From: Clavaria fumosa
Taxonomy: Eukaryota; Basidiomycota; Agaricomycetes; Agaricales; Clavariaceae
DNA length: 64,000 nucleotides
Assembly (NCBI GenBank): GCA_951802425.1
Contig: OX637800.1
Location: 1,612,001-1,676,000 of the forward strand
Reading direction: 5' to 3'
Below, piece by piece: positions 3,291-64,000 of this stretch; position 1 is the first letter of the stretch, and the number at the start of each line of letters is the position of its first letter. Under the pieces are notes generated by a model, which was not told the DNA's origin, searched no databases, and worked only from the letters and a program-made list of their open reading frames with translations. The position numbers and the translations under genes are program-made.

Positions 3291-3583
3291 TAGGGATGCC
3301 ACGGTTCGGTTCTGAACTTTGGTTCGAACCTGAACTGGACTGGACCGAACCGAAAATGAGGTTCAGGTTCAGCCAAGTGGGTGAACCGAACCAAAATTGA
3401 GGTTCAGAAGCCCAAATTTGGGCGAACCATTACCTTATTTGGTAAAAGTCCGGTCCAATGAACTGGACTTGGACTGAACTCAGGTTCAAGGTTCGGAATT
3501 TGGCCTGAACTGGACCTAAAGTCCGGTTTGGGGTTCGAAAAAATTGGCCCTGAACCGGACTTAACCGGACCATGGCATCCCTA
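3291..3583. mobile_element. hAT-type MITE, copy 1 (293 bp)
   Basis: The ends are TAGGGATGCCACGGTTCGGT and the near-perfect inverted counterpart finishing CCATGGCATCCCTA. The element is flanked by a perfect 8 bp target duplication ATTGGGTG (3283-3290 and 3584-3591), typical of hAT transposition. The inside is built from repeated GGTTC/GAACC and CCGGAC units with no ORF. A second copy of exactly the same length is at 12110-12402. Confidence 0.93.
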
Positions 3584-4527: not shown

Positions 4528-6194
4528 TCAAAACAGGAGTATAAAGGCAGCCACAAGGGCGGCTGTCAAGGAAGCGCGAGCCGTAGCCCGACGGGCGCTC
4601 TCTCTCGTCAGATCCTTCGATTTCTTCATGCGTTCATCCTGCGCTTCCTTCTCAGCCCTCGCTCTGCGATCCGCCTCCTTGGCTCGCTCCTCGAGAGTCT
4701 TGGGATCCTGCTCAAGCCTCTTCTCCAATTTTCTCTGTCTGTCACGAAGGGCTTGCGTCTGGTGAGTCTGACGTTCTGGCTGCGCCTTCAACTTCGTCAT
4801 GATTTCGTCCTGTGCTTCCTTCTCAGCTTTCGCTTTGCGATCCGCCTCCTCTTTGTCAAGCTCAGCTTGGCGTTTGCCTTGGAGTAGCTGCTCTGCCAGA
4901 GCCTGGCGCTCCTGCGCAGCAATTTTTTCAAACTCTTCTCGACGACGTTGTTCATCGTGGAGATGCCCTTGCATTTCCTCGATAGCTGCGCGCCTCTTGT
5001 CCACTTCTGACTCTAGATGCGTACGGGCCCTTCTCTCCTCCTCCAGCATAGCAAGAAATGCGCTTCGCTGCTCGTCGAGTTGGCGTGCCGCAATCACCTT
5101 CTCAGCTTCTGCAGATGCCTTGACAGACTCGAGGCCTTCTTCTAGACGAATCTTGTCTTCCTTCCACTGGTCCAACCGATGCTGAAGCTTTTCTCGCTCC
5201 TCTTCCAGTTCCCCCTTCCACTGATCGTCCTTCTCCTGAATGGCCATAGCCATTTCTTCTCGCAACTCCATCATCTCCGCCTCATGCTTCTCGTTGAGCG
5301 CTTTCAGTTCCGTGCTGAGTTCAGAACCGGAGGCTGTCTGATCCAGCGGCATCCCCTGCGCAAGCTCAACCTGAATCTGAAGCGCAATAGGATCATTGTC
5401 GAGGAGCTGGGTCAAGATATTTTGAGCCGATGGAAGTGTATTATCATGGCGGAGCGACCGAGCGCCGGCGTCAACGAGTGGCTTAAAGAACTTGGTGTTG
5501 GTCAGGAGTTCCTGTTCCCGAGCAATTCCAGTGGCCTCGTCGACTTGGTCCCATCTTGAGGTTACGATGACGACATTCTTGAGCGAGTCTGAACCGCAGA
5601 GCTTTTTAAACATCCGCAAGTTGCACGTCGAGACTCCACCCATCCTCGGATCGGTGATTCGGTGCATGTAAATGACGCCGCTCAACAGTCTCTTATCTTT
5701 GAATCTGTGTCGATTATTGTAAAAATAAGGACCCGGGATACGAAAAGACTATGCTTACTCGGCATCGAGGAAGGCAGAAACCCTTTGCAGAATGACGGTA
5801 TCAGTGATTCCCTCGCGAGAATCATCAAAGCCGGGAGTTTCAACGAAAATAATGCAGCGACCATCAGGCTCAAAGTAGCGAAAAAGACCAATGTCGGATG
5901 TCTCAGATTCTACACTATGTCCAATCTTGATATTCTGATCGCCTGTGATGAGCTTGATGAGCTAGTTTCGAGCTTCAGTGTCCATGTGCACATATAAATG
6001 TGCATAAGTGTTTCGTACCGAAGATTTTCCAGTTCCGGTTGAACCCATAATACTGAAAGTGGCTCGTTAGAAATAGAGGGAGGCTACGCAATAGAAGACA
6101 ATCGGACTTACGCAATCGTAATATCTGGACGCCTCTGTCCAGGAACACCGACATCTTCGCAGTAACCCAAATTCGCACTGGGCGAGGGGCTCAT
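4528..6194 (-). CDS. GTPase A: AIG1/GIMAP-like P-loop GTPase with coiled coil and C-terminal membrane anchor
   Basis: I read four exons (6194-6112, 6052-6019, 5961-5759, 5704-4528) giving 498 aa in a continuous frame. The G domain shows G1 GSTGTGKSS (31-39), a G3-like ETPGFDD (80-86, Glu instead of the usual Asp) and TSRWD (155-159) in the G4 position. The GVIYMHRITDPRMGG block is typical of this expanded fungal family. Residues about 205-475 are a long charged Glu/Lys/Arg/Gln coiled coil, and the protein ends in a short hydrophobic tail (ASLTAALVAAFILLF), suggesting a tail-anchored protein. Start chosen at the first ATG before the P-loop exon. In animals and plants the related AIG1/GIMAP GTPases act in immunity; the fungal role is unknown. 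A close but broken paralogue (B) is at 19740-22006. Confidence 0.85.
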
Positions 6195-6426
6195 CTGAAT
6201 TGGATAGGTAGCTGGTTGGTAGCTTAACAGTCGGTGAGAAACGCAAGAGGACATTCTTAAACGCTGCGGTAATAGTCTTACCGCGACTCCAATGCGTGGA
6301 TCGGAATGATGCGGCAATAGGACATTCAACGACGGCACCGCACTCCCGAGGCGTGTATCGGACATGAAAATCACGTTGGAACCCTGGATCTGTGTTAGAG
6401 GGTGTTCGGTCTCAGTGAGGAACGAC

Positions 6427-6678
6427 TTACAGTGTAATCACTGCGAGCTCGATGAGACCATCCTGTGCACTTTCCAACACGAGGACAGCCGGCTCGTGAT
6501 TTAGGATTTGCGAGCCGTTGACGCAAATGCTGGCCTGGGCAAAGTCTAGCCAGGCCCCGTCGTTCAGGTTATCTTTACAGGCGGCGACGCTGAGGGCATT
6601 GACTCTGGCATTATAATGACGCGCAAGGGTGATAGATTGTAGGCAACGGTGATGATAATGTCGTCGTTGATCACGCAC
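6427..6678 (-). CDS. Unrecognised small ORF next to GTPase A, duplicated next to GTPase B
   Basis: Reads towards GTPase A and ends ...GLIELAVITL-stop. The paralogous stretch at 22235-22480 keeps the frame with substitutions (DNLNDGAWLDFAQASI versus DNLNDGAWLYFAQASI, NHEPAVLVLESAQDG versus NHEPAVLVLVSAHDG). The open frame in both copies may only reflect a recent duplication. The composition suggests a small beta-rich domain, but I do not recognise a family. It may be the last exon of a gene whose 5' part lies in 6700-7090, or a remnant. The first codon is not determined. Confidence 0.4.
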   Translation of the reverse strand: MRDQRRHYHHRCLQSITLARHYNARVNALSVAACKDNLNDGAWLDFAQASICVNGSQILNHEPAVLVLESAQDGLIELAVITL

Positions 6679-6679
6679 C

Positions 6680-7360
6680 CATCGCTAGAGGTGGTGGACT
6701 CGCCGTCGTCATTCCTCTGCACACGGATTAGTCGATAAGAAAGTGAAAAAAAGACTAAAGCATACCAGAGGCAGAGAACACTGCCTCCTCGCCACTTGCG
6801 CCCATTCACTCTCGTCCCCCTTGCCCTGGATGGCCTCATTGGTGTCCGTTCGAGGTCCCGAGTCCTGTTGGCACTTCCTACTGCTCCCGATGGCTTTGAT
6901 ATCCTGCTCTGTCCGGTGACCCTAGGCTGCGATCTGTTTTGAGCAGGCTGTGATGGTTTGTGGGGCTGTGCTTGACGTTTGGTTTCGGACGTGCGGTAGA
7001 AGGAACGGCGCGTCCAGGCTGTGCTCGTGTCGCTGCCGTACCACTTTTCCGATGTCCTGGCAATCCCTTCAGCCTTGCTGGCTGAAAACAAACAGAAAGG
7101 GTAAAGATATGCCTCGCCCGTTCGTCACCGTCGTTGCCCCAGTGCTAACCTTCCTGCGATGAGTCGTCCACCAAATTACCATTGGAAAATTCCTAAGCTC
7201 TGCCATCCTCACGTTCGTTATTCTGTGACACAGAATGGAGAGGTTGTAAGGACTCGTCGGCGGCGTAAACCTCCATTCAACAACCATCCTCAACAATCAA
7301 ATGCTTTTCAATTACAAATTCGACAGGCTCCAATGAATTTTGGGAAATTTTCCTACTAAA
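6680..7360. repeat. Segmental-duplication block A, distal part (empty site for the palindromic element)
   Basis: This stretch is closely similar to 22500-22790 plus 31092-31490, in the same orientation. At 6944-6958 it reads GAGCAGGCTGTGATGG without interruption, which is the uninterrupted target of the 8.3 kb element found in block B. No gene is recognised in it. Confidence 0.8.
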
Positions 7361-22480: not shown

Positions 22481-22835
22481 GGGTGATGATAATGTCGTCG
22501 TTGATCACGCACCCATCGCTAGAGGTGGCGGTGGTGGTGGACTCACCGTCGTCATTCCTGTACACGGATTAGTGGATAAGAAAGTGAAAAAAAGACTAAA
22601 GCATACCAGAGGCAGAGAACACTGCCTCCTCGCCACTTGCGCCTGTTCACTCTCGTCCCCCTTGCCCTGGATGGCCTCATTGGTGTCCGTTCGAGGTCCC
22701 GAGTCCTGTTGGCACTTCCTACTGCTCCCGATGGCTTTGGTATCCTGCTCTATCCGGTGACCCTGTTCTGCGATCTGTTTTGAGCAGGCTTTGTTCTCAC
22801 GGGACACGGGCGCTTGGGCGGGAACGATTACGTAA

Positions 22836-22853
22836 GCGTGTCCTGGGACACGC
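22836..22853. promoter_or_regulatory. 18 bp perfect dyad GCGTGTCC-TG-GGACACGC
   Basis: Two 8 bp inverted half-sites around a 2 bp centre lie 46 bp inside the left end. The mirror copy is at 30919-30936. The GGGACACG half-site recurs in the central promoter regions. A recombinase or companion-protein binding site is plausible but inferred. Confidence 0.5.
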
Positions 22854-23118
22854 CTCCGCCCCCTCTCTGGCCTCTCGACCTCGGACACCGTTCAGGAGGC
22901 GGGTCGTCGGTGCCCCGGGCTGAGCTCACTGCCACAGCCGCCGCTGTGACTCCCTTTTTTGGGTCTTTTCCCCCGAGTGGCAGGTGCCAATCTCAAGAAC
23001 CGTGCCAGAACCGTATCTCAACTCGCGGCTCAACTGGGTCATCACCAACTCGTTTGTTCATCTTGTGGCTCGTGTTAGCACAAACTAAACCTTCCCCCCC
23101 TCTAGCCCACTTCTTGCA

Positions 23119-24259
23119 ATGGTTCCCAGGCCCTCGGATGTCACCGTTGCCGGCATCTTGCACGCCAAACAGAAGGAGCTCCACTTCTGGATCAAGCAGG
23201 CGAATGCCGCAGCTGGCAGCAAGGTCCTGACTCTACAAGGCACCATCTGCACCCTTCGCGAGAAGCTCGCGCAGTACTACGGCCTCGACCTCACCTGCAC
23301 GGCCTCAAAGACCAATATCGTTATTGCCAGCCTGGTCTCGATGGATCTGCAGCTTCAGCGCAAGCAGTGGGCATACCTACGGACCCTGGGGAGGGAATGG
23401 GAGGCGAGAGCAGCCGCGGGACGGCCTTTCATGCTGTTGGACACCGATTGTGAGTCCTGTCTCCGCCTGGCTCATCCTGTGCTTGCTTCTCACCTCCGAC
23501 AGGCCAGGGCGCTGACGGGTCCATGCCCCTCCCTCCCTCCAGTCCGTCCCATCCAAACAGCATGCCCCCACCTTCTAGCCCAACCTCTGGCAGCCACAGT
23601 GACCCAGCAACACGTGGGGCACCATTGCAGATGGCGGGAGATTGCAACCACGAGGTGCGGTGATTTCTTTGTCGTTGCTGCTATCTTGGCTCAATCTCAC
23701 ATGCCGTTGCCCACCTGTGCTGCTACAGGCATCACCAGATGCCATCCCTGAGGCGGCGATAGCCCCTGCCATGCCAAGCACCCACTCCAACCCCGGGCCC
23801 GATGCCGAGTTTCTTCAAGCCTGTGCCTTGGATCTTGAGGCGCTACAGCGGGCAAAAGATCTTCAGGCCGTGGTTGCCCAGGTTGAGTCAGGTGAGGTGA
23901 GCCGAGTCCGCCAGCTCTACGGACCACGGAAGGGCAGGAAGGCCAACCCGGCCTGGGCAAAAATGAAGGTCACAGTGACCCGGCGTGAGCGTGTCTACGA
24001 GCAGCTGGCTGGGGAATTCAGCGGTGACAAGGAGCAGTTCTTTGACTTTTTCACAGTTGATCAGACCTCAATGAGGTCCTATCGGAAGATTGCGCAGGCA
24101 ATCCCCTGGATGCAGAAGGACCTCAAGGTAGAACAGATCAATCAAAAGTATTTTGACCCGGCAGGGCTGTTTTCACCCAGCATCTGGCATGCATGCTGGG
24201 CAGGAAAGAACAACTGGGAGATCTGGAGGGCCCTCGGGATGGAGCGGTATGATAAGTAG
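23119..24259 (+). CDS. Companion protein of the palindromic element, left-arm copy (337 aa, function unknown)
   Basis: Three exons (23119-23449, 23503-23654, 23729-24259) close to 337 aa. The N-terminal part (about 1-75) contains LTLQGTICTLREKLAQYYGL, whose spacing recalls a SAP-type DNA-binding helix pair; this is a weak resemblance. Exon 2 encodes a Pro/Ser-rich linker. The C-terminal 180 aa include a basic patch (LYGPRKGRKANPAWAKMKV), FFDFFTVDQTSMRSYRKIAQ and W-rich WHACWAGKNNWEIWRALG. It converges on the recombinase gene with 5 bp between stop codons, so the two are likely co-inherited functions. It could be a DNA-binding accessory factor, but no family is recognised. Confidence 0.75.
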
Positions 24260-24264
24260 CCTAC

Positions 24265-25996
24265 TTAACAATGCTGCCGTTTACTGTGATTGCGGTCGTA
24301 ATCTACCATATGCTCGTGGTTGTCATTGGGTGAATAGAAATAGCGGAACATAGTCACTGCCTCCAGCTGCGTCCAGCCTCCCCAGCCAGCAACCATGTCA
24401 ATGCTCCACCCATTGTCTCTGATGCGGTGCTGACATCCTCCACGACGGAATGAATGCGTACCATACAATGACCATGACTTGTAACTGAGATTCTGGAGGT
24501 CTCGGCTCAGTGAACGGCTCATGATGCTCGTTGTCTGTATCAAATCAGTTGTTTGGAACAGTACATGGGACCTGATGTGCACTTACCACTGCTTGCTCTG
24601 TTAAGACAGCACCAGAGGCATGTACTTGCAGGAACAGTGGACCAGTAGGGTGCACATTTTCTCCATAGAGCATAGCAAGGAGTATCAGTGCCCGGACTGG
24701 ACATATCAGTGGATCCAAATCATTGGCATGCAGCCTCCAAGTATGCAGGATCCCAGTTTGAGCTGTTTTCCGAGTCTTGAGTTGGACTTCAAAGTATGCA
24801 CCTGCAAAAGGGACATGAGAATTTGTCTTCTCTTTCCATATTCCTAACTTTAGATTCACAATTGCCCGGTATCATATTAATGCTCTCAAACTCAAGGGTA
24901 ACTACCTCATCAATTCGAAGCATCATAAGCCAGGCAAGGAGGTAAATAGTCTATGTATATCAAAGTTGTCCTCTGAGAACAACGCATCAATGTGGGTGCT
25001 CACATATCGGACTGCACCCCACCGTGTTTCTCCTACAGATAGGCCTTGTTTGACACAAAGGCTGTAGAGCCGGTGCATGTCATCCAAGGAGAGGGCTCGA
25101 GCTGAGCTTGACACCTCACCAGCCTTTGCCTTCATTTTCTCAAGGCCGGTCATGAACTCCGAGACAACCCGGGACCGTGTGGGCAAGCCATGGCTGAGCC
25201 TGGCATCAGCCATTGAATGCAGAAGAGGTATGGGACGCACCAGGTCCCATCCTTGTCCACCTGCCAATCTGTAATGCTCTCACTTGGCCGAACATTACGG
25301 TACCAGAGTGTGAGGGCTGCACGGGTTGAGACGGCAGTTGCGTACTAGGGATTGCAAGGTTAGCCTCGGGGTCATGGTCTCTCAGGGTGCGCAAGTACGC
25401 ACTCGTCTTCCCTCATACCCCTCCTCCTTGCTGCCGCACTTTTGGGTGATATAACGGCGGATGTCATACGGTGTCTGGCTGGTGACCACCTTTGGGTCCC
25501 AAGCCCGTTTGCTCTGCTGGTGAAAATCAATGTAGGCCTTGATAATTCTTCATGATAATGATCAGACGAAGCTTGAACTGAAGCCGAGATGGGCAGGGGG
25601 CTTACCTGTAGTGGTTGGCCCGTGTTCTCACGGCAATACTGCCACGAGTAATGTGGGCCGCATAGACCTCAAGCTCATCGCATGCCACCTGCTCCGGGAA
25701 GTCATCCATGGTCTCCGAGAGGAGGAGGTCAAGGTCAAGGGAGTCAAACTCCTCGAGCTCAAGTTGCAGCATCTCCTTTGAGATCTAAGCCATGCCGTTG
25801 TCCTCAGTGAGTGCTGGCAGGCAAAATTTGGCAGTGAATAGATGCTCACCTTGGGCTCAGTGACCTCACTCTCAATGTCATTTGTGCCGGTACCCACCCC
25901 CACTCCGGCAACACCACCTGGGCTGAGGTTGGAGTCGGGGACTGTGCGGCCGCCGCAAATGGGGGGCGGAGGGGTGCGGGCTTCAATGATATCCAT
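24265..25996 (-). CDS. Tyrosine recombinase, left-arm copy (448 aa)
   Basis: Mirror image of the right-arm gene; eight exons obtained by subtracting right-arm exon coordinates from 53772. The coding sequence has the same catalytic residues, and the one amino-acid difference I found is NDNHEHM here versus NDNHKHM on the right (24315, a CpG transition), near the C-terminus after the catalytic tyrosine. It is predicted to cut and rejoin element DNA through a 3'-phosphotyrosine. Both copies have intact frames. Confidence 0.85.
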
Positions 25997-26831
25997 TCAC
26001 GCAGGCTTGGGCAGGTGTCAGCCTGATGTGGTTGCGCAGGCAGGTCACAATGGACAGCAAGCAAGAGGGGGATGGGAGCCTGTGGATGCGGAATTTAGTG
26101 CGCTCTTGTATGGGACAAACTGAAACAAACTGACTCAGTGGCGAGCAGCAGTCAGCATTACAAGTAAGTATTGTGATCGGGACAGGGTCTGTTGGTTCAG
26201 ACGAGAGCGCCGCTGCCATTGTAGACGGAGTGAGGCGGCGGCAGCTGGGAGCGGCGGGGACATGACACAACAGGAAGTCGACAGGCAGACACGTGAGAGA
26301 GCATGACACATGACACACCTTGTTGATCGTGTCCCGGGGCTGCCAACTAGGCTGAACAGCATGGGACACGCACAGACACGCACCAAGGTCAGAAATGCCC
26401 AGGTCTGGGCGTGTCCCAGGCGCACCAAAGGCGCAACTGATTGCTTGGGACACGCCGGCATTCCAGAGCGTGAGCATGGTGGCCAGGCGCGTGCGCTTGG
26501 GACACGCCGGCATTCCAGAGCGTGAGCATGGTGGCCAGGCGCGTGCCCTCGGGTAACCATGGACCTTAGCTTCATAGTCAGCCATGCAAGGAGGCCAAGA
26601 AAGAAGCAAAGCAATACGGCTCACACACCTTGGTTCGCTTGCATCCAGCAGACCAAGTGGAAGAGGCCAGTGACAGGGCTGCACTGCACATCAGCAAGAA
26701 CACTGATACAGGGTGCGCAGGCTTCGAGGGGGGCCCCCTGCACTCACATCATCATCATGTCCCCGCACCGAGCAACTTTGCAGCGTCGACGATATGCGCT
26801 GATGGCATGCATGTGTTTGCCGCACAAATAA
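25997..26831 (-). promoter_or_regulatory. Upstream region of the left recombinase gene, inner part of arm L
   Basis: 835 bp between the recombinase ATG and the central segment. Frames open across it (minus strand 26684-25983 and 26614-26135), but their codons follow a repeated GC-rich sequence and show no domain, so I treat it as promoter or leader. It contains several CGTGTCCC/GGGACACG motifs (around 26328, 26363, 26410, 26446, 26498) and a 52 bp tandem duplication. Confidence 0.5.
26443..26546. repeat. 2 x 52 bp tandem repeat, left arm
   Basis: GCTTGGGACACGCCGGCATT recurs at 26443 and 26495; each unit carries one GGGACACG motif and one CCAGGCGCG motif. Mirror copy at about 27226-27329. Confidence 0.85.
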
Positions 26832-26940
26832 GCAACCCTTAGAACGAGCCGGGACACACTTGCATAAGCATTTGTAAGCGAGCCACCCATGTGGCTCAGT
26901 CGGACCCCCGGCTACTGTTCACTTAGCCGTGTGACATCGC
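26832..26940 (+). repeat. Central 109 bp segment S' of the palindromic element
   Basis: It begins GCAACCC and ends GACATCGC, and is flanked on both sides by the same inverted sequence (...CACAAATAA / TTATTTGTG...). It is the exact reverse complement of 30983-31091. It holds a dyad GAGCCAC-CCAT-GTGGCTC (26880-26897), the best candidate for a recombination core: two inverted half-sites around a short asymmetric spacer. It also separates the two divergently transcribed recombinase genes. Confidence 0.85.
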
Positions 26941-27775
26941 TTATTTGTGCGGCAAACACATGCATGCCATCAGCGCATATCGTCGACGCTGCAAAGTTGC
27001 TCGGTGCGGGGACATGATGATGATGTGAGTGCAGGGGGCCCCCCTCGAAGCCTGCGCACCCTGTATCAGTGTTCTTGCTGATGTGCAGTGCAGCCCTGTC
27101 ACTGGCCTCTTCCACTTGGTCTGCTGGATGCAAGCAAACCAAGGTGTGTGAGCCGTATTGCTTTGCTTCTTTCTTGGCCTCCTTGCATGGCTGACTACGA
27201 AGCTAAGGTCCATGGTTACCCGAGGGCACGCGCCTGGCCACCATGCTCACGCTCTGGAATGCCGGCGTGTCCCAAGCGCACGCGCCTGGCCACCATGCTC
27301 ACGCTCTGGAATGCCGGCGTGTCCCAAGCAATCAGTTGCGCCTTTGGTGCGCCTGGGACACGCCCAGACCTGGGCATTTCTGACCTTGGTGCGTGTCTGT
27401 GCATGTCCCATGCTGTTCAGCCTAGTTGGCAGCCCCGGGACACGATCAACAAGGTGTGTCATGTGTCATGCTCTCTCACGTGTCTGCCTGTCGACTTCCT
27501 GTTGTGTCATGTCCCCGCCGCTCCCAGCTGCCGCCGCCTCACTCCGTCTACAATGGCAGCGGCGCTCTCGTCTGAACCAACAGACCCTGTCCCGATCACA
27601 ATACTTACTTGTAATGCTGACTGCTGCTCGCCACTGAGTCAGTTTGTTTCAGTTTGTCCCATACAAGAGCGCACTAAATTCTGCATCCACAGGCTCCCAT
27701 CCCCCTCTTGCTTGCTGTCCATTGTGACCTGCCTGCGCAACCACATCAGGCTGACACCTGCCCAAGCCTGCGTGA
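26941..27775 (+). promoter_or_regulatory. Upstream region of the right recombinase gene
   Basis: Mirror of 25997-26831 with the same motifs and the 52 bp tandem repeat. At 27403 one GGGACACG motif has decayed to GGGACATG by a CpG transition. Confidence 0.5.
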
Positions 27776-29507
27776 ATGGATATCATTGAAGCCCGCACCC
27801 CTCCGCCCCCCATTTGCGGCGGCCGCACAGTCCCCGACTCCAACCTCAGCCCAGGTGGTGTTGCCGGAGTGGGGGTGGGTACCGGCACAAATGACATTGA
27901 GAGTGAGGTCACTGAGCCCAAGGTGAGCATCTATTCACTGCCAAATTTTGCCTGCCAGCACTCACTGAGGACAACGGCATGGCTTAGATCTCAAAGGAGA
28001 TGCTGCAACTTGAGCTCGAGGAGTTTGACTCCCTTGACCTTGACCTCCTCCTCTCGGAGACCATGGATGACTTCCCGGAGCAGGTGGCATGCGATGAGCT
28101 TGAGGTCTATGCGGCCCACATTACTCGTGGCAGTATTGCCGTGAGAACACGGGCCAACCACTACAGGTAAGCCCCCTGCCCATCTCGGCTTCAGTTCAAG
28201 CTTCGTCTGATCATTATCATGAAGAATTATCAAGGCCTACATTGATTTTCACCAGCAGAGCAAACGGGCTTGGGACCCAAAGGTGGTCACCAGCCAGACA
28301 CCGTATGACATCCGCCGTTATATCACCCAAAAGTGCGGCAGCAAGGAGGAGGGGTATGAGGGAAGACGAGTGCGTACTTGCGCACCCTGAGAGACCATGA
28401 CCCCGAGGCTAACCTTGCAATCCCTAGTACGCAACTGCCGTCTCAACCCGTGCAGCCCTCACACTCTGGTACCGTAATGTTCGGCCAAGTGAGAGCATTA
28501 CAGATTGGCAGGTGGACAAGGATGGGACCTGGTGCGTCCCATACCTCTTCTGCATTCAATGGCTGATGCCAGGCTCAGCCATGGCTTGCCCACACGGTCC
28601 CGGGTTGTCTCGGAGTTCATGACCGGCCTTGAGAAAATGAAGGCAAAGGCTGGTGAGGTGTCAAGCTCAGCTCGAGCCCTCTCCTTGGATGACATGCACC
28701 GGCTCTACAGCCTTTGTGTCAAACAAGGCCTATCTGTAGGAGAAACACGGTGGGGTGCAGTCCGATATGTGAGCACCCACATTGATGCGTTGTTCTCAGA
28801 GGACAACTTTGATATACATAGACTATTTACCTCCTTGCCTGGCTTATGATGCTTCGAATTGATGAGGTAGTTACCCTTGAGTTTGAGAGCATTAATATGA
28901 TACCGGGCAATTGTGAATCTAAAGTTAGGAATATGGAAAGAGAAGACAAATTCTCATGTCCCTTTTGCAGGTGCATACTTTGAAGTCCAACTCAAGACTC
29001 GGAAAACAGCTCAAACTGGGATCCTGCATACTTGGAGGCTGCATGCCAATGATTTGGATCCACTGATATGTCCAGTCCGGGCACTGATACTCCTTGCTAT
29101 GCTCTATGGAGAAAATGTGCACCCTACTGGTCCACTGTTCCTGCAAGTACATGCCTCTGGTGCTGTCTTAACAGAGCAAGCAGTGGTAAGTGCACATCAG
29201 GTCCCATGTACTGTTCCAAACAACTGATTTGATACAGACAACGAGCATCATGAGCCGTTCACTGAGCCGAGACCTCCAGAATCTCAGTTACAAGTCATGG
29301 TCATTGTATGGTACGCATTCATTCCGTCGTGGAGGATGTCAGCACCGCATCAGAGACAATGGGTGGAGCATTGACATGGTTGCTGGCTGGGGAGGCTGGA
29401 CGCAGCTGGAGGCAGTGACTATGTTCCGCTATTTCTATTCACCCAATGACAACCACAAGCATATGGTAGATTACGACCGCAATCACAGTAAACGGCAGCA
29501 TTGTTAA
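27776..29507 (+). CDS. Tyrosine recombinase (Crypton-like), right-arm copy (448 aa)
   Basis: Eight exons (27776-27922, 27988-28166, 28225-28369, 28428-28531, 28573-28768, 28822-28912, 28971-29185, 29238-29507) sum to 449 codons. Splicing restores box I LLAWLMMLRIDEVVTL with Arg269, and the last exon holds THSFRRGGCQ (His386-x-x-Arg389), GWGGW (Trp413 in the second-His position) and FRYFYS (nucleophile Tyr424 or Tyr426). The N-terminal half (core-binding region) has IIKAYIDFHQQSKRAW and TPYDIRRYI. This is the R-HxxR-W-Y set of the tyrosine recombinase superfamily. There is no reverse transcriptase, so it is not a DIRS element, and no DUF3435-type captain signature that I can see. The family assignment is by motif only. 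Confidence 0.88.
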
Positions 29508-29512
29508 GTAGG

Positions 29513-30653
29513 CTACTTATCATACCGCTCCATCCCGAGGGCCCTCCAGATCTCCCAGTTGTTCTTTCCTGCCCAGCATGCATGCCAGATGCTGGGTGAA
29601 AACAGCCCTGCCGGGTCAAAATACTTTTGATTGATCTGTTCTACCTTGAGGTCCTTCTGCATCCAGGGGATTGCCTGCGCAATCTTCCGATAGGACCTCA
29701 TTGAGGTCTGATCAACTGTGAAAAAGTCAAAGAACTGCTCCTTGTCACCGCTGAATTCCCCAGCCAGCTGCTCGTAGACACGCTCACGCCGGGTCACTGT
29801 GACCTTCATTTTTGCCCAGGCCGGGTTGGCCTTCCTGCCCTTCCGTGGTCCGTAGAGCTGGCGGACTCGGCTCACCTCACCTGACTCAACCTGGGCAACC
29901 ACGGCCTGAAGATCTTTTGCCCGCTGTAGCGCCTCAAGATCCAAGGCACAGGCTTGAAGAAACTCGGCATCGGGCCCGGGGTTGGAGTGGGTGCTTGGCA
30001 TGGCAGGGGCTATCGCCGCCTCAGGGATGGCATCTGGTGATGCCTGTAGCAGCACAGGTGGGCAACGGCATGTGAGATTGAGCCAAGATAGCAGCAACGA
30101 CAAAGAAATCACCGCACCTCGTGGTTGCAATCTCCCGCCATCTGCAATGGTGCCCCACGTGTTGCTGGGTCACTGTGGCTGCCAGAGGTTGGGCTAGAAG
30201 GTGGGGGCATGCTGTTTGGATGGGACGGACTGGAGGGAGGGAGGGGCATGGACCCGTCAGCGCCCTGGCCTGTCGGAGGTGAGAAGCAAGCACAGGATGA
30301 GCCAGGCAGAGACAGGACTCACAATCGGTGTCCAACAGCATGAAAGGCCGTCCCGCGGCTGCTCTCGCCTCCCATTCCCTCCCCAGGGTCCGTAGGTATG
30401 CCCACTGCTTGCGCTGAAGCTGCAGATCCATCGAGACCAGGCTGGCAATAACGATATTGGTCTTTGAGGCCGTGCAGGTGAGGTCGAGGCCGTAGTACTG
30501 CGCGAGCTTCTCGCGAAGGGTGCAGATGGTGCCTTGTAGAGTCAGGACCTTGCTGCCAGCTGCGGCATTCGCCTGCTTGATCCAGAAGTGGAGCTCCTTC
30601 TGTTTGGCGTGCAAGATGCCGGCAACGGTGACATCCGAGGGCCTGGGAACCAT
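29513..30653 (-). CDS. Companion protein of the palindromic element, right-arm copy (337 aa)
   Basis: Mirror of 23119-24259 (exons 30653-30323, 30269-30118, 30043-29513). The coding frame is intact; the difference I found from the left copy lies in the first intron (30308, C to T at CpG on the minus strand). See the left copy for domain notes. Confidence 0.75.
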
Positions 30654-30982
30654 TGCAAGAAGTGGGCTAGAGGGGGGGAAGGTTTAGTTTGTGCTAACAC
30701 GAGCCACAAGATGAACAAACGAGTTGGTGATGACCCAGTTGAGCCGCGAGTTGAGATACGGTTCTGGCACGGTTCTTGAGATTGGCACCTGCCACTCGGG
30801 GGAAAAGACCCAAAAAAGGGAGTCACAGCGGCGGCTGTGGCAGTGAGCTCAGCCCGGGGCACCGACGACCCGCCTCCTGAACGGTGTCCGAGGTCGAGAG
30901 GCCAGAGAGGGGGCGGAGGCGTGTCCCAGGACACGCTTACGTAATCGTTCCCGCCCAAGCGCCCGTGTCCCGTGAAAACAAA

Positions 30983-31091
30983 GCGATGTCACACGGCTAA
31001 GTGAACAGTAGCCGGGGGTCCGACTGAGCCACATGGGTGGCTCGCTTACAAATGCTTATGCAAGTGTGTCCCGGCTCGTTCTAAGGGTTGC
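30983..31091 (-). repeat. Right-end 109 bp segment S, the inverted twin of the centre
   Basis: Begins GCGATGTC and ends AAGGGTTGC, identical in reverse complement to 26832-26940 at all 109 positions. It contains the dyad GAGCCAC-ATGG-GTGGCTC (31026-31043). The left end of the element lacks a corresponding copy: host sequence abuts the arm directly at 22790. Confidence 0.85.
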
Positions 31092-31490
31092 TGTGATGGT
31101 TCGCGGGGCTGTGCTTGAGTCAAGCAGCTTGACGTTTGGTTTCGGACGTGCGGTAGTAGAAGAAACGGCGCGTCCAGGCTGCGCTCGTGTCGCTGCCGTG
31201 CCACTTTTCCGTTGTTCTGGAAATCCCTTCAGCCTTGCTCGCTGAAAACAAACAGAAAGGGTAAAGACATGCCTCGCCCGTTCGTCACCGCCGTTGCCCC
31301 AGTGCAAACCTTCCTGCGATGAGTCGTCCACCAAGTCGCCATTTGGAAGATTCCTAAGCTCTGCCATCCTCACGTTCGTGATTCTGTGACACAGAATGGA
31401 GAGGTCGTATGGACTCGTTGGCGGCGCAAATCTCCATTCAACAACCACCCTCGACAATCCAATTACAAATTCGATAGGCTCCAATCTACC
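31092..31490. repeat. Segmental-duplication block B, distal part
   Basis: Continuation of block B after the element, matching block A from 6951 onwards (GTGATGGTT...TGACGTTTGGTTTCGGACGTGC). It differs by a few small indels, such as AGTCAAGCAG near 31118. No gene recognised. Confidence 0.8.
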
Positions 31491-31989: not shown

Positions 31990-34900
31990 TCATGATTGGG
32001 AATGGTAAAGGGGGTCAAGCTCCTCCCTGGCATCATACCATATTTCAGACCCCTCATCCATACCATTCAAGTTGACATTGGATGTGGCAATATCAAGCTC
32101 CTCTGTAGCATCATACCACATCTCAGACTCTTCATGTGGATCATTGTCACTGGATGAGGCACTATCTGGATAAATTGCCCAGACTTCCATGACATGAACC
32201 TTTGGCTCTTCTGCTTCATTATGCGTCCCCTGAGCTGAATATGTGGATGCCAGACTGCTAATACTTGTCAGAGTGTCTGGATGTTCTGGGCCAAGCACTC
32301 TCTTCCTGGCTTCCATAACATGAACCTTCAGCTCCTCTGCTTCATTATGCTTCCCCTGAGCTGAATATGTGGATGCCAGACTGCTAATACTTTTCAGAGT
32401 GTCTGGATGTTCTGGGCCAAGCAGTCTCTTACTGGCCTCCATAACATGAACTTGCAGCTCCTCTGCTTCATTGTTCTTCCCCTGAGCTGAATATGTCAAT
32501 GCCAAATTGTTAATGCTTGTCAGAGTGTCTGGATGTTCTGGGCTAAGCAATCTCTTCATGGCTTCCATAACATGAACTTGCAGCTCCTCTGCTTCATTGT
32601 GCTTCCCCTGAGCTGAATATGTCAATGCCAAATTGTTAATGCTTCTCAGAGTCTCTGGATGTTCTGGGCCAAGCACTCTCTTCAAGGCTTCCATAACATG
32701 AACCTCCAGCTCCTCTGCTTTATTGTTCTTCCCCTGAGCTGAATATGTCATTGCCAAATTGTTAATGCTTGTCAGAGTGTCTGGATGTTCTGGGCCAAGC
32801 ACTCTCTTCCTGGCTTCCATAACATGAACTTGCAGCTCCTCTGCTTCATTGTTCTTCCCCTGAGCTGAATATGTCATTGCCAAATTGTTAATGCTTGTCA
32901 GAGTGTCTGGATGTTCTGGGCCAAGCACTCTCTTCAAGGCTTCCATAACATGAACCTCCAGCTCCTCTGCTTCATTGTGCCTCCCCTGAGCTGAATATGT
33001 GGATGCCAGACTGCTAATACTTGTCAGAGTGTCTGGATGTTCTGGGCCAAGCACTCTCTTACTGGCTTCCATAACATGAACCTCCAGCTCCTCTGCTTTA
33101 TTGTTCTTCCCCTGAGCTGAATATGTCAATGCCAAATTGTTAATGCTTGTCAGAGTGTCTGGATGTTCTGGGCCAAGCAGTCTCTTACTGGCCTCCATAA
33201 CATGAACTTGCAGCTCCTCTGCTTCATTGTTCTTCCCCTGAGCTGAATATGTCAATGCCAAATTGTTAATGCTTGTCAGAGTGGATGGATGTTCTGGGCC
33301 AAGCACTCTCTTCAAGGCTTCCACAACATGAACTTGCAGCTCCTCTGCTTCATTGTTCTTCCCCTGAGCTGAATATGTGGATGCCAAATTGTTAATGCTT
33401 GTCAGAATGGATGGATGTTCTGGGCCAAGCACTCTCTTCAAGGCTTCCATAACATGAACTTGCAGCTCCTCTGCTTCATTGTGCCTCCCCTGAGCTGAAT
33501 ATGTCAATGCCAAATTGTCAATGCTTGTCAGAGTGGATGGATGTTCTGGGCCAAGCACTCTCTTCTTGGCTTCCATAACATGGACCTTCAGCTCCTCTGC
33601 TTTATTGTGCTTCCCCTGAGCTGAATATGTCAATGCCAAATTGTTAATGCTTGTCAGAGTGGATGGATGTTCTGGGCCAAGCACTCTCTTCCTGGCTTCC
33701 ATAACATGAACCTCCAGCTCCTCTGCTTCATTGTTCTTCCCCTGAGCTGAATATGTCAATGCCAAATTGTTAATGCTTGTCAGAGTGGATGGATGTTCTG
33801 GGCCAAGCACTCTCTTCCTGGCTTCCATAACATGAACCTTCAGCTCCTCTGCTTCATTGTTCTTCCCCTGAGCTGAATATGTGGATGCCAGACTGCTAAT
33901 ACTTGTCAGAGTGTCTGGATGTTCTGGGCCAAGCACTCTCTTACTGGCTTCCATAACATGAACCTTCAGCTCCTCTGCTTCATTGTTCTTCCCCTGAGCT
34001 GAATATGTCAATGCCAAATTGTTAATGCTTGTCAGAGTGTCTGGATGTTCTGGGCCAAGCAGTCTCTTACTGGCCTCCATAACATGAACTTGCAGCTCCT
34101 CTGCTTCATTGTTCTTCCCCTGAGCTGAATATGTCATTGCCAAATTGTTAATGCTTATCAGAATGGATGGATGTTCTGGGCCAAGCACTCTCTTCCTGAC
34201 TTCCATAACATGAACTTGCAGCTCCTCTGCTTTATTGTGCTTCCCCTGAGCTGAATATGTGGATGCCAAATTGTTAATGCTTGTCAGAGTGCCTGGATGT
34301 TCTGGGCCAAGCACTCTCTTCATGACTTCCATAACATGAACCTTCAGCTCCTCTGCTTTATTGTGCTTCCCCTGAGCTAAATATGTCACCGCCAAATCAC
34401 TAATGCTTGTCAGAGTGTCTGGGTGTTCTGGGCCAAGCTCTCTCCTTTGGCTTTCTGTTGCACACACAGAAACTGCCTCTGCCTCCTCAAACCATCCATT
34501 TTCATAGTACACCACTATCAGTTTCTTCCATTTTCCAATGTTTTCAATTGAATATTTTCTTTGTGTATGTAGATTGATGATTTTTATGTGTGGCAGTAGT
34601 GATTGACGAAAGGCATAATCAGAGCCATCTTTCCCATATGTGATTGAGTGGCACACCAAAGTGTCAACAGAACCATATTTTGACTGTTTCTCTTCCTTGG
34701 AACATCTGTCTTGGCACCACAGATGTACCAGTGGATGCATGGAGTACAATCTTCCAGAGCTGCTGCATTTCACAAGTGAAAATGATGTCAACAGCTCAAT
34801 TGCTTTCCTAAAAATGAAATTGTCCCAGTTGCCTGCATGGTCAACATGCAATATGTTGGACCAATGTACTGAATCTTTAAGCAACTGCTCCCAACTACTT

Positions 34901-36304
34901 CTTGCATTGTTTTCTTGTGACCCACCCAAAGCTATCTCTTTTGCAGCATTTCTAAACATCATTTCTGGAATGTTTTTATGATGGAGGCAGGCAAATATCT
35001 GTAGCAGGAGAAGTGCACTTGAAGCTGCCTGAGCCTCCCCTCTTTTGCTTCTGCCATGTGCCCTGGCTTCTATCTCTGTAACTGACAGCTCCCATGTCCC
35101 ATAAACTGCTTGCCCATAGTTGGATGCCCCACTGAATGAAGGATTATCCAACAACTCCTCATGATGTCTCTCATACTGTTCAAGGTAATCCCCCAGATCA
35201 CATAGACCACTTGCAATGGATGCACCAGCTTGGTCAACAGCTAGAGGCAAGTAGCATAAGGTGGCCACAATAGAACATGCGATCTGCCTTAGTTCACCAG
35301 TATCACTGCAATCGCTCGCTCTCAGAAGGAGAGTGATCGCTTCCTCCTCCCCCATCTGCTCAACTTCAGTTGAATCCCGAGGATTTACTAGTCCATGCAT
35401 GACTGGATTCCGGCTGGTGATGAGTACGTTGCCTCGGTTGTTTGCTGGGATACAATTCTTCACAGTATCAGGGTCACTTGCATTATCATAAACAAGCAAC
35501 CATTCCTGTCTCATCCAGGATATCCATGAGAGGACCGAGCGCACAGAGTTCTCAACTCCAGATGCTTGGGCAGCATGATCATGAGCAATATCTTTGATAG
35601 ACTGCTCAATTGTCTCGGGGCTGGTTGCATCAATCCAGAAGACTCGCCAGAACCTGTTCACAATGGTAAGTAATCAAGCAATGTAGTATGATGTCAGTCA
35701 ACGCACAACTTTGGATTTTCCTCAATGAACTTCAGACAAATCTGAGTCTTGCCAATACCTCCCATCCCATAGAGGAGAAAGAGCCGTCTAGAGAAAAATT
35801 GTCCCTCACGCGGGCCAAAATGACTTTTGAGTTTCTCGAGGTATGACCTCTGCCCGGTGAAAATTGGGCTGGGGGAGGGCATCCCTTTGAATGTGACTTG
35901 TGACTGGAACTGTGCAGACGAGGGAGAATCAAACAGGGCTACATTGGCAAGTCAGGCCAGTCAGGTCAAGAGTACAAAGGTTCATTCATTCAAGCTCACT
36001 TTGATGAATGTGGAGTGCACCGATGGAGAAGTTATGAGACCCGACATCTCTAGCATCTACAACAGTTTTTTGGATATTGGGGGCAGGGATAAGCTTCTCA
36101 CATAGACTCACATATAGTTGAGTGATCATAAGTCTGTTGCACAACCAAGGACACTGGTGGCATGCCAGTCGCCCTCTCAATGTCTGCAAGAGATCGGGCT
36201 GTAAGTGAGATCAAACGGCCCTACAACCTCACAAACCACTCACTTGCTGTAGTATGATCTTCGTTTAGTGAGGGTAAATCCTCACCAGTGATACCCTGTG
36301 CCAT
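31990..36304 (-). CDS. NLR2: full-length NB-ARC protein with 18 KLC-type TPR repeats
   Basis: Exons 36304-36244, 36183-36112, 36056-36000, 35938-35707 and 35653-31990 give 1361 aa and match NLR1 exon for exon. The N-terminal region has ARDVGSHNFSIGALHIHQ. NB-ARC motifs are Walker A GMGGIGKTQ, Walker B LLVYDNASDP, GNVLITSRN, CYLPLAVDQAG and MHPLVH. Eighteen 42-aa repeats (RVLGPEHPDTLTSINNLA type) follow, then an acidic tail with a duplicated motif (SEMWYDATEELD, SEIWYDAREELD). NB-ARC proteins act as nucleotide switches, and the repeat array is presumably the sensor. The start is the ATG conserved with NLR1; the frame is also open upstream to 36700, so a longer N-terminus is possible. Intact, unlike NLR1. 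Confidence 0.93.

Positions 36305-61530: not shown

Positions 61531-64000
<2,470 letters not shown>

Follow-up and report, generated by a model that had tools for sequence, protein, structure and literature searches.

An inverted dimer inserted at a GC dinucleotide

A 64,000-nucleotide stretch of the Clavaria fumosa genome, referred to here as the window (contig 7, 1612001-1676000, in a 48.76-Mb assembly of 17 contigs), contains an 8302-bp mobile element built as an inverted dimer around a tyrosine recombinase gene. We read it as a DNA transposon of an agaricomycete-type fungus, Crypton-like and driven by a tyrosine recombinase, that would have integrated as an inverted-dimer circle. We put the probability of this reading at roughly 60%. 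Positions are those of the window unless another contig is named.

The element spans 22790-31091, which is 2 x 4151 bp, and repeat search with base-level comparison gives the order L S L' S'. The left arm (L, 22790-26831, plus strand) is 4042 bp long, with its outer end, Lo, at 22790 and its inner end, Li, at 26831. A 109-bp segment (S, 26832-26940, plus strand) lies between the inner arm ends. The right arm (L', 26941-30982, minus strand) is an inverted copy of L, and the last segment (S', 30983-31091, minus strand) is an inverted copy of S. The raw inverted-repeat pairs from the repeat search were 22788-26833 with 26939-30984, and 26831-26942 with 30981-31092. Arm positions paired across the palindrome sum to 53772. 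Between L and L' there are 7 differences in 4042 positions, each of them a transition, and S and S', in opposite orientation, show no difference. Inverted arms of 4 kb cannot be chance. An earlier description of this DNA made from its letters and open reading frames (ORFs), the sequence-only reading, had proposed this exact register with the same arm length, pair sum and total, and all of these figures were reproduced.

All five junctions of the window element carry the dinucleotide GC: flank/Lo (22788-22789), Li/S (26832-26833), S/Li' (26939-26940), Lo'/S' (30983-30984) and S'/flank (31090-31091). Counting the two other near-complete copies described below, GC stands at 10 of 10 junctions (five in the window, three surviving in the copy on contig 2 and two in a single-arm monomer on contig 3), although the ends recur and the ten are not all independent. 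The frequency of GC among dinucleotides in the window is 0.076.

The insertion can be followed to the base because the flanks of the window copy belong to a stretch that is repeated on contig 7. The left flank has six known paralogues there. When the two window flanks are put together with one GC between them and the paralogues are aligned to the result, all six read through without the element as GAGCAG-GC-TGTGAT. One of them lies inside the window itself (6382-7334, plus strand). In a comparison of 900 bases two pairs among them show no difference, so the six places represent four distinct sequences. One paralogue, L072, diverges soon past a 14-base difference in the right flank; none of the six empty sites has these 14 bases (31113-31126), which lie 21 bases beyond the right junction. 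For the contig-2 copy, three other places have a match that reaches the junction side, and all three read through as CTCA-GC-TGAG, which brings the empty-site places for the two dimers to nine. The single GC of the empty site is found once on each side after insertion. This exact read-through means that each dimer came in as one piece, or piece by piece at exact ends, with one GC on each side. The sequence-only reading had pictured an inverted-dimer element with divergent recombinase genes at its centre, and the empty sites now delimit it as an exact 8302-bp insertion block.

When each copy is oriented so that Lo lies to the right of the first GC, the target beyond the opposite end starts with TGTG, TGAG and TGTG in the three copies. 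Element and target share GC, at most GCT, when both ends are compared with the empty site. S-left/GC/Lo is the junction at which either dimer is opened, and the two have the same outer ends.

Other copies in the genome and their decay

Further copies were sought by DNA search of the genome with one element unit. A second inverted pair lies on contig 2 (4113155-4120212, with the tip pattern ending at 4120214). It consists of S, of L as far as about position 3440 and of L' beginning at about 3490-3500 and running outward, in the window order on the other strand. This insert is 7051 bp long, with about 1.3 kb of the centre gone asymmetrically, and its S differs from that of the window at 1 of 109 positions. 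The asymmetric central deletion falls at 5150-5280 of the extracted sequence (L009); asymmetric central deletions are the type of change that stabilises long palindromes. In a search of the same genome, S matched elsewhere only at 30983-31091 and at 4113155-4113272 on contig 2.

The third near-complete copy, on contig 3 (4070032-4074010 as matched in the DNA search, within about 4070030-4074027), is a single arm of 3996 bp, consisting of L without S, and its inner end differs from Li at several of the last 20 bases. A relic of 818 bp with 75% identity lies on contig 11. Other copies that were all simple monomers would have counted against an inverted-dimer architecture according to the sequence-only reading; of the two near-complete others, one is an inverted dimer and one an L-only monomer. 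That reading had also called for a search for 4151-bp monomers and for other dimers. The second dimer, with an exact empty site of its own, answers one half of it, and the monomer of that length was not found.

Protein searches, run exon by exon and with limited sensitivity, revealed no further recombinase locus: neither the window recombinase nor a divergent homologue (P0071) gave more than the same three loci. A Phage_integrase family search of the genome gave no match although the element is present, and is therefore insensitive here. A genome scan for the Lo tip recovered the five known tips at 0-1 mismatch and seven more at 3 mismatches. The seven were rejected as further copies, being at chance level (12 matches to the pattern, against 21 for a control pattern).

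The copies differ in how far they have decayed. Pairwise differences number 7 of 4044 positions between the window arms, 8 of 3449 between the contig-2 arms, 27-38 between window and contig 2, and 62-71 between the monomer and the others. Of the 40 changes private to the monomer, 39 are CpG-type (C-to-T or G-to-A at CpG), a decay suggesting that this fungus methylates cytosines in its transposons. Both contig-2 arms have 18 changes in common relative to window and monomer (12 CpG-type), whereas 6 changes set both window arms apart (1 CpG-type). The same two premature stops interrupt the recombinase in both contig-2 arms, and two other stops interrupt it in the monomer. The companion gene described below is open in all copies except the monomer, which has one stop in it. 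Shared decay and shared stops imply one of two histories: one arm was converted to the other once the element had inserted, or the dimer arose from a monomer that had decayed beforehand. Gene conversion probably keeps the arms alike. Because either conversion or a decayed parent may apply, arm identity can neither date the dimers nor show that they formed independently; dating by arm differences was dropped in view of the shared decay on contig 2.

The recombinase and its companion

Each arm encodes two proteins, whose gene models are predictions built by hand. The recombinase model has eight exons and seven GT-AG introns and encodes 448 residues. On the right arm it runs from 27776 to 29507 on the plus strand (exons 27776-27922, 27988-28166, 28225-28369, 28428-28531, 28573-28768, 28822-28912, 28971-29185 and 29238-29507). 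The left-arm gene, with mirror exons, occupies 24265-25996 on the minus strand, so that the two diverge from the dimer centre. The companion gene encodes 283 residues from two exons on the left arm (23119-24259, plus strand; exons 23119-23449 and 23739-24259) and has mirror exons on the right arm (29513-30653, minus strand). Both genes are intact in both window arms, and the two intact copies of each that the sequence-only reading had reported are indeed there.

Protein search with the recombinase scored 7996 candidates, of which 122 were homologues at E values up to 0.01. Identity to the query was 33-69% among the 120 matches listed. The named homologues are fungal, and we take their genera to be Agaricomycetes (Favolaschia was looked up). 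For an ORF of the window, the best named hit is Plicaturopsis crispa, a genus likewise looked up, at 44%, and the highest-ranking hit of all is a metagenome protein at 52%. Neither viral contigs, searched with the recombinase and with an alignment of 22 recombinase sequences that includes the window protein, nor genome contigs, searched with the alignment, yielded a relative. In this alignment K299, H386, R389, W410 and Y424 are invariant and R269 is at least 90% conserved. These are presumably the catalytic R, K, HxxR, H/W and Y residues. A wider alignment of 44 sequences includes partial proteins, and its C-terminal columns are not among the conserved ones. In the window protein, 24 residues follow Y424 to the C-terminus.

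The protein chosen for folding was a homologue, P0001. Its AlphaFold2 model has a mean predicted local distance difference test score (pLDDT) of 76.6 and a predicted template modelling score (pTM) of 0.60. Compared with the PDB, the model matches Cre (E 1.1e-08), XerH (3.0e-05) and Tn1549 integrase (2.3e-04), with FLP a weak match at 0.033. A sequence match to a solved structure at E 0.44 was set aside as chance. By its conserved residues and the modelled homologue, the enzyme of the element is assigned as a tyrosine recombinase with a predicted Cre/FLP fold.

In Pfam, Phage_integrase matches 9 of the 22 alignment members at E 0.1, the window protein not among them, and the window recombinase itself gives only a Phage_int_SAM_4 match below the cut-off (E 0.058). 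No enzyme family exceeded the cut-off when 15 ORFs of the unit and the two spliced proteins were scanned; matches to CYNS_N (E 0.019) and DNApolII_insertion (E 0.093) were below it and were discarded as chance. The companion protein matches no Pfam family. Protein search found four homologues of it, one from Favolaschia claudopus and three metagenomic.

A short motif, GGGACAC, is concentrated in the element. Of 17 occurrences in the window 15 are inside it, 8 in L and S and 7 in L' and S'. One L+S unit thus holds 8, against 0.76 on average and never more than 4 in 500 simulations. Within the unit, two sites are near the outer end (22801 and 22845), five are clustered 300-500 bases from Li (26329-26505), and one is in S (26851). 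On the other side, the right arm keeps both outer sites and 4 of the 5 cluster sites, and S' has one. The motif is a candidate binding site and may be bound by the recombinase or the companion. Two of the cluster sites are inside a 52-bp tandem duplication with GGGACACGC sites, present in both window arms (26443-26546 and 27219-27322). The 52-bp unit is single in the contig-3 monomer, and the region is lost from contig 2.

The element lies among duplicated stretches of contig 7 (about 1.51-1.64 Mb). An adjoining ORF of 1223 codons (31990-35661, minus strand) has 17-18 matches to tetratricopeptide-repeat families and otherwise only DUF7779, below the cut-off, in Pfam. Its N-terminal part resembles a nucleoside triphosphatase (NTPase), and the gene may be NLR-like. 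Near the window's end GC content jumps to 70% (62000-64000), and an ORF for a spermidine/spermine synthase is found there (62998-63702).

Formation of the dimer

We infer the circle, the exchange and any role in amplification, and the mechanism of dimer formation is in this sense a supported inference. A circle of L and the 109-bp S, 4151 bp in all, would have existed (step 1), in which S is perhaps flanking DNA caught by imprecise excision. The recombinase would then exchange the Li/GC/S junction of one copy with the S/GC/Lo junction of another in inverted alignment, producing a circular L S L' S' (step 2). Such an inverted exchange would be possible because the GC core is self-complementary. 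The dimer circle would integrate at targets resembling GCTGWG (step 3).

The order of the segments constrains this pathway. The sequence-only reading had suggested that a 4151-bp circle dimerised head to head, but a plain head-to-head dimer of [L S] would have the order L S S' L', and the observed order needs an inverted exchange at different junctions. Two kinds of event were enumerated: one exchange between two monomer circles, aligned in parallel or inverted and with S either way round, and one inversion within a direct dimer. When two like circles recombine, L S L' S' results if the exchange is inverted and involves the two different L/S junctions. No other single two-circle exchange gives it; an inversion in a mixed direct dimer does so too.

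Several observations weigh against the dimer-circle reading. The common core of 2-3 bp is shorter than the 6-8-bp spacer that PMC3212892 gives for these enzymes. The 4151-bp L+S monomer was not found in the assembly, and the sole near-complete monomer is without S. For that monomer the right flank was single-copy in the search, so an empty site could not be shown. There are two dimers only, in one genome, and the second is without its centre, its S' being assumed. Its shared stops mean that this copy moved in trans or that its arms were converted after insertion. Finally, the GGGACAC motif occurs only 5 times in the contig-2 copy and twice in the monomer.

The best placed of the rival explanations, though an unlikely one, is stepwise accretion. 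An [L S] monomer would have inserted first, and a second circle would have followed in inverted orientation at the monomer's own S/flank junction, the element ends being good targets. This involves the same kind of GC exchange without a dimer intermediate and should leave the same junctions and empty site. It would, however, have had to occur at each of two unrelated sites and to give one and the same order and outer ends both times, and the search of this assembly revealed no [L S] monomer.

Somewhat less probable still is a single origin. A dimer would have arisen only once, whatever the route (template switching while a circle replicates is an example), and its 8.3-kb unit would since have transposed whole, with gene conversion homogenising the arms. 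The outer ends are alike in both dimers, in keeping with this. The two shared stops and the 18 shared changes on contig 2, 12 of them CpG-type, are also as expected if the arms were converted after insertion; yet that decay could predate the dimer, coming from an inactive monomer moved in trans. The GC present at every internal junction is not explained by a single origin alone.

We consider it very improbable that an inserted monomer was duplicated in place and inverted by fold-back replication or break repair. Events of this kind give short-spacer palindromes like L S L', but none of the results speaks for one here, S' beyond L' with exact GC joints is not accounted for, flanking DNA would normally be mirrored as well, and independent events at two loci would be needed.

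Even harder to credit is a linear molecule with hairpin telomeres, as in poxviruses or protelomerase systems, where S and S' would be the flip and flop loops of a replicated circular dimer. Relatives of tyrosine recombinases do make such ends, and S and S' are oppositely oriented. S also folds somewhat better than its shuffles (z -2.3, with 6 of 200 shuffles equally good). The predicted single-stranded fold has a 7-bp hairpin in mid-segment and leaves the first 10 and last 20 nucleotides unpaired, so that it would not close the arm duplex, and we reject the idea. The least probable explanation is a mirror artefact of assembly: chimeric reads are known to yield palindromes, but the arms differ at 7 positions, the unmirrored flanks join to read as the six paralogous empty sites do, and a second dimer with its own arm differences lies elsewhere.

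Relation to known systems

Passages of Kojima and Jurka 2011 (PMC3212892) describe Cryptons as being without terminal inverted repeats, propose that they move via a circle, and note that some carry an additional protein. The same passages assign a DNA-binding GCR1_C domain, placed behind the recombinase, to CryptonF and 6-bp terminal direct repeats to most fungal Cryptons, and give animal Cryptons neither the C-terminal domain nor terminal repeats. The window element resembles Cryptons in that its tyrosine recombinase is the only recognisable enzyme, with no reverse transcriptase and with a companion protein present. It differs from CryptonF and CryptonS, for which terminal direct repeats of 4-6 bp are expected, in sharing GC, at most GCT, with its target. 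GCR1_C was absent from the matches of the 22 alignment members at E 0.1. The element also differs from Cryptons in its inverted arms of 3.4-4.0 kb, found in two of the three near-complete copies while the monomer is single-arm, and in its separate 109-bp segment. We file the element as Crypton-like and not as CryptonF because it fits the general description and lacks two CryptonF features. The missing features exclude CryptonF and not Cryptons in the wide sense, in which membership is uncertain.

According to portions of PMC3147054, the 2-micron plasmid is extrachromosomal and has a pair of 599-bp repeats, and an inversion just after a site has been replicated can start double rolling-circle replication. 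The likeness to the 2-micron/FLP system is a tyrosine recombinase with inverted sites in a circle, which for the window element is a putative one. The differences are that the window element is chromosomal, that its repeats make up nearly the whole element and that no replication function was identified in it. If the exchange took place on a circle whose replication was half complete, it could set off double rolling-circle replication there as well, which is a parallel to 2-micron only. A bolder proposal is that the inverted-dimer circle is the normal mobile form, made by flipping at the self-complementary 2-bp core as a copy-number amplification step like that of 2-micron and FLP. It is a tentative proposal, to which we give a low probability.

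DIRS-like retrotransposons likewise have a tyrosine recombinase, integrate as a circle with a very short target match, and in some cases carry inverted repeats. The window element differs in that no reverse-transcriptase family turned up when 15 ORFs of its unit and the two spliced proteins were scanned against Pfam. Starships (PMC12134995) are giant elements of Pezizomycotina driven by a tyrosine recombinase. The likeness is that of a fungal mobile element with such an enzyme, and the difference lies in size and host group. DUF3435, the family of the Starship captain recombinase, was not matched: only two Pfam families match the 22 alignment members at E 0.1, and neither is this one. Among the papers listed by searches of open-licence literature, there was no inverted-dimer Crypton or inverted-dimer tyrosine-recombinase transposon.

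Implications

Inverted dimers at two unrelated sites suggest that transposons of this class can be mobile as circles of double length. The empty sites fix its target to the base. All surviving internal joints share the dinucleotide of the target joint, which points to extrachromosomal dimer formation driven by the recombinase and makes that route testable. If true, a self-complementary 2-bp core would be uncommon among tyrosine recombinases, and it would account for a loss of orientation control. We know of no settled account of how Cryptons multiply, given that excision and integration involve no self-copying. If the amplification proposal is true, this would be a chromosomal transposon with a plasmid-like step of copy-number amplification.

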